Of a stretch of 63,902 nt of DNA, positions 53,426 through 55,570 are shown piece by piece. How positions within the stretch are numbered: position 1 is the first letter of the stretch; every line of letters starts with the position of its first letter. Origin of the DNA: Xanthomarina spongicola. Lineage in GTDB: Bacteria > Bacteroidota > Bacteroidia > Flavobacteriales > Flavobacteriaceae. Both the position numbers and the translations under genes were made by a program. The notes under the pieces are model-generated. The model worked only from the letters and a program-made list of their open reading frames with translations. It had not been told where the DNA came from and searched no databases. Where the stretch lies: the NCBI RefSeq assembly GCF_003148645.1, contig NZ_QGGP01000011.1, forward strand, positions 1-63,902, read 5' to 3'.

Positions 53426-53457
53426 AAAACCCCTCAAAAATTTGAAGGGTTTTTAAT
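53426..53457 (-). terminator. Terminator of rnpB
   Basis: AAAACCCCTCAAA and TTTGAAGGGTTTT form a stem with one mismatch and T-rich flanks on both sides. It lies just after the 3' end of the RNase P RNA on the minus strand and before the gene at 53398. Confidence 0.82.
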
Positions 53458-53460
53458 ATG

Positions 53461-53763
53461 TAAGCAAATCTATAAGCCGAATTCTGTACTCTAAAAGAGT
53501 CCTTATCATTTATCTGAGTGTACTGTTACCAATACACTTTAGCTGTCTACCCTCCAACATCAAGCGTGCAGCCTTCAAACGTTGGTTTACATGACATTGC
53601 ACCACATAGAGTTTACCTGATTTCACTACAGCATTACCTGTACATACTTTCTGTTGCACTTTTCCTAGCCTCACGACTGGTGGCCATTAACCACTATGTT
53701 GCACTATGGTGTTCGGACTTTCCTCCATTCGACTAAACGAACAGCGATAAGACAATCTACTTA
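53461..53763 (-). ncRNA. rnpB: RNase P RNA (class A)
   Basis: The minus strand contains GAGGAAAGTCCGAACACC near the 5' end, the universal P4/J region motif of RNase P RNA, and ACAGAATTCGGCTTATAG near the 3' end (the CR V-type motif). The ends pair: TAAGTAGATT (5', 53754-53763) with GATTTGCTTA (3', 53461-53470), allowing G-U pairs, which would be P1. About 303 nt. A TAnnTTTG box 4-11 bp upstream and a terminator downstream confirm the unit. Any protein frames here are spurious. Confidence 0.93.
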
Positions 53764-53850: not shown

Positions 53851-54924
53851 ATGGAACACTTTGTAGTATCTGCACGTAAATATAGACCCCAAACATTTAA
53901 GGATGTTGTGGGTCAGCAAGCTATTACAAATACGTTACTAAATGCTATTGAAAATAATCATTTAGCACAAGCCCTACTTTTTACTGGTCCTCGTGGTGTT
54001 GGTAAAACGACATGTGCTCGTATTTTGGCAAAAATGATTAATAGTGATGGTACAGAAAAAGAAGATGAGGATTTTGCCTTTAATATCTTTGAATTAGATG
54101 CAGCTTCCAACAATGGAGTCGATCAAATTAGAGAATTAACAGATCAAGTTCGCATACCTCCACAAGTTGGAAAATACAAAGTGTATATTATTGACGAGGT
54201 ACATATGCTTTCTCAAGCTGCTTTTAATGCTTTTCTAAAAACATTAGAAGAACCACCAAAACATTGCATTTTTATTCTTGCAACTACTGAAAAACATAAG
54301 ATTATTCCAACTATTCTATCTCGTTGTCAGATTTTTGATTTTAAAAGAATTTCTGTAAAAGATGCCAAAGAATATTTAAAATATATAGCTAAAGAACAGG
54401 GTATTACTGCAGAAGACGATGCACTACATATTATTGCCCAAAAAGCAGATGGAGCCATGCGTGATGCACTTTCCATATTTGATCGTGTAGTTAGTTTTTC
54501 TGGAAAAAATTTAACCAGACAAGCAGTAACCGAAAACTTAAACGTACTTGATTACGAAACATATTTTACAAGTACAGATTACATTCTAGAAAACAATATT
54601 CCAAGTTTATTAATTCAGTTTAATAATATATTATCAAAAGGATTCGATGGCCATCATTACATTGCTGGTTTAGCCTCACATTTTAGAGATTTATTAGTTT
54701 GTAAGAATTCTGAAACTATAGAATTACTAGAAGTTGGAGAAGAAACAAAGGAAAAATATCTTATCCAATCTAAAAAAGCTTCTCAGCCATTTCTACTACA
54801 AGGAATAGAACTGGCAAACGATTGTGATTTAAAGTTTAAATCCAGCAAAAATCAACGGTTACTTGTTGAATTATGCCTTATGCAGCTTGCCTCTATCACT
54901 TTTGATGGAGAAAAAAAAAAATAG
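53851..54924 (+). CDS. dnaX: DNA polymerase III gamma subunit (dnaX, short product)
   Basis: The 357-residue clamp-loader ATPase has Walker A GPRGVGKTT (about 47-55), Walker B IIDEVHML, sensor 1 ATTEKHKI and the SRC motif (arginine finger) LSRCQIFDF. The cysteine-rich zinc module found in other phyla after Walker A is absent. In its place is GTEKEDEDFAFNIFELDAAS, as in other flavobacteria. The frame ends right after a run of 11 A at 54911-54921 with TAG, and the reading frame of tau continues one base over. It is the gamma-like product. Domain III ends near residue 350. Confidence 0.93.
   Translation: MEHFVVSARKYRPQTFKDVVGQQAITNTLLNAIENNHLAQALLFTGPRGVGKTTCARILAKMINSDGTEKEDEDFAFNIFELDAASNNGVDQIRELTDQVRIPPQVGKYKVYIIDEVHMLSQAAFNAFLKTLEEPPKHCIFILATTEKHKIIPTILSRCQIFDFKRISVKDAKEYLKYIAKEQGITAEDDALHIIAQKADGAMRDALSIFDRVVSFSGKNLTRQAVTENLNVLDYETYFTSTDYILENNIPSLLIQFNNILSKGFDGHHYIAGLASHFRDLLVCKNSETIELLEVGEETKEKYLIQSKKASQPFLLQGIELANDCDLKFKSSKNQRLLVELCLMQLASITFDGEKKK
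54911..54921 (+). promoter_or_regulatory. A11 slippery run, candidate recoding site of dnaX
   Basis: Eleven A in a row precede the TAG stop of the gamma frame. A transcript with one A fewer (or two more), or a +1 ribosomal shift, joins the gamma frame to the following 54911-55570 frame. Thermus dnaX uses A9 transcriptional slippage and E. coli uses a -1 ribosomal shift, so this is a plausible programmed site. A sequencing error in the run is the alternative. Confidence 0.65.
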
Positions 54925-55570
54925 CAAAAACTTCATAATTCCAGCTAGTTATTTTATCAATAAAGGCATTACACCTGTTCCAGTTTCTATTCCAGAAAAA
55001 AAGGAATCTATTGTAAGAGATACTAAGACACAAACTTCTAATAACACAGAAAAAACTGTTATAGCTCCTAAGGAAATTGAAACTCCAAAAATAACCTTAA
55101 ACACTGGAAAAAAAGCTACTTCTGGTCTATCGTTAAAAAGTATTAAGGCTAAAAAAGAACATCAAATAAAACAAATGGAAGTTATAATTGATGAAGAAAA
55201 TTTGCCAAAAGATGATTTTACTGAAGACCAATTAATTTCTTACTGGAATACATTTATTAAACAACTAGAAGTTAAAGGCCAATTTAATTTAGCATCCATT
55301 TTATCTATAGACACTCCCAAAGTAACGGGAACAACCATTTATTTAGAATTTCCTAATGCAACAAATAAAGTAGAAGTTGAGCGTCAGCAATACGATTTGA
55401 TGATGTTTTTAAAGAAGTCACTAAATAATTACGATCTTCATCTATCTATTGAAGTTAATGAAGAAATGGAAAAACAATATGCGTTTACTCCAATGGAAAA
55501 ATATTTAAAACTAAAGGAGAAAAACCCAAATATTGAGGTGTTGAAAAAAACCTTTGGATTAGATTTATAA
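54911..55570 (+). CDS. dnaX: Tau-specific C-terminal region of dnaX (frame +1)
   Basis: This frame continues the dnaX message after the A11 run: a low-complexity linker (about 30-110 residues) and a folded C-terminal part with ISYWNTFIKQLEVKGQFNLASIL and FPNATNKVEVERQQYDLMMFLKKSLNNYDLHLSIEV. This matches the C-terminal domain of flavobacterial gamma/tau proteins. With one A skipped the full tau product would be 572 residues. No good independent start is apparent except the ATG at 54905, which precedes the A run. It is unlikely to be a separate gene. Confidence 0.8.
   Translation, partial: KKKNSKNFIIPASYFINKGITPVPVSIPEKKESIVRDTKTQTSNNTEKTVIAPKEIETPKITLNTGKKATSGLSLKSIKAKKEHQIKQMEVIIDEENLPKDDFTEDQLISYWNTFIKQLEVKGQFNLASILSIDTPKVTGTTIYLEFPNATNKVEVERQQYDLMMFLKKSLNNYDLHLSIEVNEEMEKQYAFTPMEKYLKLKEKNPNIEVLKKTFGLDL

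Follow-up and report, generated by a model that had tools for sequence, protein, structure and literature searches.

A poly-A run with an abutting RNA hairpin at the gamma/tau junction of dnaX as a probable site of transcriptional slippage in Flavobacteriaceae

The dnaX locus and its reading registers

The stretch of DNA analysed here (the window, 63,902 nucleotides from Xanthomarina spongicola) carries a dnaX gene in which the gamma and tau parts lie in different reading frames. The features of the locus are listed below.

53851..54924, + strand: zero-frame ORF of dnaX, gamma, the clamp-loader ATPase part, 357 aa (ORF list, NF011531, TIGR02397)
54891..54910, + strand: RNA hairpin CUCUAUCA-CUUU-UGAUGGAG of 8 bp, arms 54891-54898 and 54903-54910 (folding)
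54911..54921, + strand: A11, proposed slippage run at the gamma/tau junction (window sequence, comparison across genera)
54922..54924, + strand: TAG, gamma stop in the templated register (A8, A11, A14; in silico registers)
54936..54938, + strand: TAA, gamma stop in registers A9 and A12 (lengths computed, position by hand)
54923..55570, + strand: tau-specific linker and C-terminal domain in the +1 frame (A10, A13; NF011531, dN/dS)

The gamma ORF starts at ATG 53851 and has 357 sense codons before TAG 54922-54924, which follows directly on the eleven A of 54911-54921, in agreement with the initial annotation of this DNA. The tau region is open in the +1 frame relative to gamma, and the accompanying claim that this frame has no fitting start of its own also stands: its listed start, TTG 54863, falls within the gamma core, and past the A run no ATG occurs in this frame before 55175, the 85th codon by hand count. 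When the run length was altered in silico, A10 gave a tau of 572 residues, the length predicted earlier for the skipping of one A, and A13 gave one of 573. Registers A8, A11 and A14 led to the TAG (356-358 aa), and A9 and A12 to the TAA (361 and 362 aa respectively), which in the tau frame overlaps a conserved pair of Ile codons, ATA ATT.

The NCBIfam gamma/tau model NF011531 (614 positions) matched the first ORF over model positions 1-369 (9e-186) and the second over 424-613 (1.3e-19), each half singly missing the cut-off of 685 bits (619.3 and 70.5). The first ORF also matched TIGR02397 with 387 bits (cut-off 250). On comparing tau in the window with six congeners, dN/dS was 0.07-0.16, a rough estimate because synonymous sites are near saturation; two of three congener pairs gave 0.057 and 0.140 and the third was saturated. 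Judging from these ratios, tau in the window is still under selection. It may be noted that a GGAG directly touches the A run in the window and is a candidate SD-like element only. RNase P RNA class A (RF00010, 205.6 bits) was also found at 53457-53763 on the - strand, divergent from dnaX.

The A run and the tau frame in relatives

All seven congeners read GAA AAA AAA AAT AGC at the junction, i.e. A10 with tau in frame. Six of them are complete (582-583 codons) and the contig of the other (G006) ends inside tau. Adding one A to a congener sequence (L002) gives the TAG of the window, and with all congeners at A10 and tau in frame, the default product here is therefore swapped from tau to gamma. 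The initial annotation had set its reading against relatives with a single uninterrupted frame and no A run; a single frame is what the congeners have, and the run is kept as A10 in every one of them.

From one set of 144 family genomes with a match, all but seven were taken into the sample. Taking one genome for each of 139 Flavobacteriaceae genera, a run of at least 9 A was present at the junction in 137, and tau was in frame 0 in 110, in -1 in 22 and in +1 in 5 (including the window), with 2 uncallable. The 16 other conserved Lys columns of dnaX have AAA in 50-88%. Counted as 226 distinct Flavobacteriaceae loci, a run of at least 9 A was found in 224 (A10 in 191), with tau in frame 0 in 179, +1 in 8, -1 in 35 and 4 uncallable; for 80 named loci the corresponding values were 67, 3 and 9, the contig of the remaining one ending in the run. 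As the loci are related, these counts are not independent. The conservation that the initial annotation had proposed to look for in other flavobacteria thus holds for the run, and the frame offset varies. The same A11 followed by TAG as in the window occurs in an uncultured Lacinutrix (2-990-J) and Psychroserpens damuponensis; Lacinutrix mariniflava and Bizionia argentinensis have A9, and Aquimarina latercula and Galbibacter marinus have A10 and an offset of -1. Outside Flavobacteriaceae, at least 9 A also stand close to where the core ends in 18 of 21 loci from other families of the order, in 19 of 20 from other orders of the class and in 8 of 13 from other classes of the phylum, the last picked by hand from about 110.

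Two other loci deserve separate mention. One Flavobacteriaceae locus (L040) has a split dnaX with no A run; it reads GAA AAG TAA, followed by a small GGGGA/UCCCC-type hairpin, and its tau is open in -1. In a 0.3-Mb genome of the order (L058), dnaX ends at about the length of gamma and no tau frame was found after it, so that tau seems, from the sequence, to have been lost in this reduced genome.

At least 41 frame changes were required on a tree built from 293 cores, of which 289 had a state (the short L336, L339 and L355 were left out, as were loci from other orders and classes), as against a mean of 63.4 and a minimum of 59 in 200 shuffles; for the 270 family loci alone the number was 36. 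We speak of about 40 switches and not 41, because one locus (L317) breaks further downstream. The window is the sole split member of its own genus and is nested among fused ones. Elsewhere whole clades are split: in the genus of G032, 14 of 22 loci read GGC A10 TC with tau in +1 and substitutions around the site (two more have the same context with an uncallable frame and six are fused), and in another genus six loci, all of them -1, group together as a clade. On this sequence evidence the split state is inherited. Some of the switches confined to a single genome may be sequencing errors, which is unlikely for the clades.

The most probable alternative is that the isolate truly has A10 like its congeners and that A11 is a base-call or assembly slip, in which case the tau frame would be uninterrupted and gamma would arise by slippage, as in the relatives. 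The uniform A10 of the seven congeners, the position of the window as the lone split gene nested within its genus and the difficulty of calling A10 versus A11 all speak for this, and still we find it rather doubtful. The A11 with TAG recurs in the Lacinutrix and Psychroserpens sequences named above, 52 other A/T runs of 7-9 lie within long open frames of the window (only such frames were counted), and the inheritance of split genes elsewhere shows this arrangement to be viable. Since 14 of 22 loci in another genus are +1 with A10, the arrangement as such is no artefact. Homopolymer error, which the initial annotation had regarded as the main rival, is therefore excluded for the arrangement as a class but may still affect the exact number of A in this isolate. 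Whichever of A11 and A10 the isolate carries, the junction looks like a slippage site from its sequence; if it is A10, the gene is congener-like and slippage would make gamma instead of tau.

Rarity of long A runs in the genome

Only 17 runs of at least 10 A were counted on both strands of the 3.16-Mb genome, where base composition predicts 104 and an order-2 Markov model 321, both estimated from the window. Given this deficit and the position of the dnaX run deep in a frame, its presence is more than chance. The overlap of the runs with ORFs was examined with ORFs closed inside each 3-kb locus and then repeated with open ends allowed. In the closed form, 13 of the 17 runs had no overlap with an ORF of at least 60 aa. 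The other four were the dnaX run, one after the stop of a SusD-like gene, one overlapping a stop codon and one near the start of a 269-aa ORF, the last being, by eye, probably upstream of the true start. With open ends, the dnaX run was the sole run deep in a long frame, lying 356 codons in; other runs touching frames of more than 200 codons had 0 to 10 codons before the run, and the remaining frames touched were of 62 to 67 codons. For frames of at least 60 codons the exception among the 17 is L362, whose run falls in a 67-codon frame on the + strand that is antisense to genes. We considered this locus as a second gene split at an A run and rejected it, the run being placed after the stop of one gene (SusD-like by eye) and before the likely start of the next.

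The hairpin adjoining the run

The 3′ arm of the hairpin ends at the base before the A run, a distance of 0, and in the window the hairpin ranks at 0.015 among synonymous shuffles; folded in full, the 111-nt stretch of the window is no more stable than its shuffles (z 0.10). In 254 of 320 loci of all ranks, pairing ends 0 or 1 nt away from the run. Hairpin tests were run on loci with a run of at least 8. Compared with synonymous recodings, 205 of the 274 family loci had a hairpin within the best 5%; compared with windows taken along the gene of each locus, 226 were within the top 5%. With one locus per genus the numbers were 92 and 107 of 138. Of 93 distinct stretches that lack the common 3′ arm, 33 were in the best 5%. 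Divided by frame, the best 5% held 166 of 211 fused loci, 26 of 36 in -1 and 8 of 21 in +1, so that the +1 loci, to which the window belongs, are the weakest class. There were 69 family loci outside the best 5%, four of them (L028, L245, L265 and L271) with a rank of 1.0.

Conservation of pairing was scored on 74 distinct 20-mers from 211 loci in a common register, out of 273 family loci. Pairing was found in 79.7% of cells compared with 74.5% after shuffling (0 of 500), and the covariation score was 0.267 against 0.187 shuffled (0 of 500) and 0.034-0.122 for slid structures. Stem pairs in which both bases had changed numbered 4, which does not exceed the shuffles (4.2). Where codons are inserted between the core and the run, the stem is retained with a longer loop in L133, L134 and L141, and no good stem was found in L187, L254, L265 and L276. 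In two further loci with extra codons, L126 (rank 0.07) and L144 (rank 0; 7 bp, -12.3 kcal/mol), a different hairpin adjoins the run, as if the stem had been replaced.

Outside the family, hairpins were not enriched, with 2 of 19, 1 of 19 and 0 of 8 loci in the best 5% by synonymous recoding and 2, 6 and 1 of the same loci along the gene. As many of these loci keep the run, the hairpin is not strictly required. With one locus per genus, the median hairpin value was -4.15 for A11 and -8.1 for A10, hairpins being weaker at A11 and longer runs (p 0.0004); A9 loci also have weaker hairpins than A10 loci (p 0.006), in a statistic that ignores kinship. This is a hint only, from sequence comparison, that run length and stem may compensate for each other. 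A role of the hairpin as a terminator was rejected by the order of the parts, since A follows it on the + strand, and on the - strand the T run comes first.

Stops in the alternative frames and ribosomal frameshifting

Of the 110 fused genera, 101 reach a stop within three codons in the register with one A added (50.3 expected, maximum 65), and 104 reach one within eight codons in the register with one A removed (37.2 expected, maximum 51), the expectation being taken from synonymous shuffles. Most of the stops in the latter register are borne by an Ile codon found in 72 of the 110 genera, where it is ATA in 70, compared with an ATA share of 1268 of 5088 Ile codons in the same genes. Slippage in both directions would require both stops; for a ribosomal -1 shift one would be enough.

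This bears on the alternative that ribosomes shift on the A run and give the second product from an unchanged mRNA. A_AAA_AAA is slippery, the E. coli dnaX site is A_AAA_AAG (PMC5009743), and ribosomal +1 or -2 slips on the run would fit the offset in the window. Also, prfB frameshift sites are reported as common in Bacteroidia in spite of an occluded anti-SD (PMC8710568). F. johnsoniae, whose anti-SD is occluded, has one as well (PMC8710568). Both points weaken the Shine-Dalgarno argument against ribosomal shifting in Bacteroidia. A locus of another family that has lost the run (L055) reads CCA AAA AAG TAG, with a 13-bp downstream stem-loop (-21.7 kcal/mol) and tau in -1; to judge from its sequence, tau seems to be produced there by a ribosomal -1 shift, opposite to the case of E. 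coli. Yet a -1 shift could give tau in the 22 split -1 genera and not in the window or the rest of the +1 genes, where the shift would have to be +1 or -2. Among 266 loci with a run of at least 9 and a callable tau frame, the sequence following the run ranks in the best 5% in 6.0%, which is the chance level; in the window no downstream stem-loop was found (z 0.69), and the 12 Rfam matches at E up to 10 include no frameshift element. Together with the early stops in both frames, these results make a ribosomal shift an improbable source of the second product.

A gene with no recoding at all, giving gamma only, or with a tau that is decaying or independently started, would agree with the separate tau ORF of the templated sequence and is highly improbable in view of the first tau-frame ATG lying 85 codons past the run, the low dN/dS of tau in the window and in congener pairs, and the clades filled by split genes.

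Proposed mechanism

We consider it very probable, on the basis of the sequence comparisons, that hairpin-assisted slippage of RNA polymerase at A11 makes both gamma and tau. The programmed slippage proposed in the initial annotation is in this way supported by the family comparisons, to which are added the reversed default relative to the relatives, the RNA hairpin and the excess of stops in both alternative frames. As RNA polymerase, with a hybrid of 9-10 bp (PMC5009743), copies the run, the hybrid would become all rA:dT, and the nascent hairpin at its upstream edge would favour realignment. The mRNA pool would then be a mixture of A10, A11, A12 and so on, in which unslipped A11 would give gamma of 357 aa, A10 and A13 would give tau, and A9 and A12 would give gamma of 361-362 aa. 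One gene with ordinary translation could thus supply both clamp-loader subunits. The sequences show the layout of the junction and how widely it is kept, the switches of frame, the stops in both frames, the extra stability of the hairpin and the selection on tau; we infer that slippage occurs, that the polymerase is its agent, that the hairpin stimulates it, and the gamma:tau ratio. A decoding ribosome would presumably cover or melt the stem.

An extension of this proposal to the whole family, for which we see the case for and against as evenly balanced, is that the dnaX junction of Flavobacteriaceae is a frame-agnostic joint, where a nascent hairpin and an A run matching the polymerase hybrid in length would make bidirectional slippage so efficient that gamma and tau are both obtained from registers 0, +1 and -1 alike. 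Insertion or loss of one base in this essential replication gene would then be nearly neutral and the tau frame would drift, as in the approximately 40 drifts of frame in this sample, with the run, the hairpin and the stops of the other frames under selection.

If hairpin-assisted slippage is correct, a whole bacterial family sets the ratio of its replicase subunits by stuttering of RNA polymerase, and the hairpin is a booster in a cellular gene and not in a mobile element. The fused, +1 and -1 genes form a natural register series of one gene, for which slippage and ribosomal shifting predict differently. Split or truncated dnaX annotations in flavobacteria may also be explained, since neither half of the window gene reaches the NF011531 cut-off.

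Comparison with known systems

No slippage of flavobacterial dnaX and no hairpin at its junction was found in open-literature titles or abstract openings. The statement of the initial annotation that no flavobacterial case is described needs care, as two-ORF poly-A dnaX genes were already predicted (PMC3711429). What is already known is dnaX slippage (Thermus) and the two-ORF poly-A dnaX of Antonov et al. 2013; what is added here is the drifting frame, the double stops and the abutting hairpin.

The -1 ribosomal frameshift of E. coli dnaX concerns the same gene, the same two products and the same kind of place (PMC3711429, PMC5009743). In E. coli, A_AAA_AAG is described as accompanied by an SD-like element upstream and a stem-loop downstream, whereas neither A_AAA_AAG nor a downstream stem-loop was found in the window.

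Antonov et al. list 17 two-ORF dnaX genes from 12 genera, of which 12 are poly-A and 9 have A10 (PMC3711429), and the A10 species may include Bacteroidota. As in the window, gamma and tau are in separate ORFs, tau requires recoding and slippage is predicted; all 17 are offset by -1, unlike the +1 of the window. Mixed shift directions were taken there as a sign of slippage (PMC3711429), which the mixed directions across the family match. In the part of that account considered here, no hairpin, double-stop test or switching among relatives is described.

In Thermus thermophilus, dnaX undergoes transcriptional slippage at A9, with mRNA of heterogeneous run length and about 1:1 products (PMC1088944, PMC5009743). 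Shared with the window are the A run at the gamma/tau junction, the choice of product by the mRNA register and the stops in both non-zero frames. The differences are a run of 9 instead of 11, and a templated frame that is tau, with slippage leading to gamma, where the templated A11 of the window is gamma; the seven congeners have the Thermus feature of a templated tau and the window lacks it. The portions of these sources that treat Thermus mention no hairpin.

For the hairpin, the closest parallel is an IS element of Roseiflexus, in which a stem-loop of the nascent RNA, immediately 5′ of T5C5, stimulates slippage and is described as what enables it (PMC5009743). That case has another run, a unidirectional loss of one base and a transposase gene. 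The hairpin is placed directly 5′ of the slippage run as in the window, and by this analogy about 10 A bordered by a stem agree with the Roseiflexus-type geometry.
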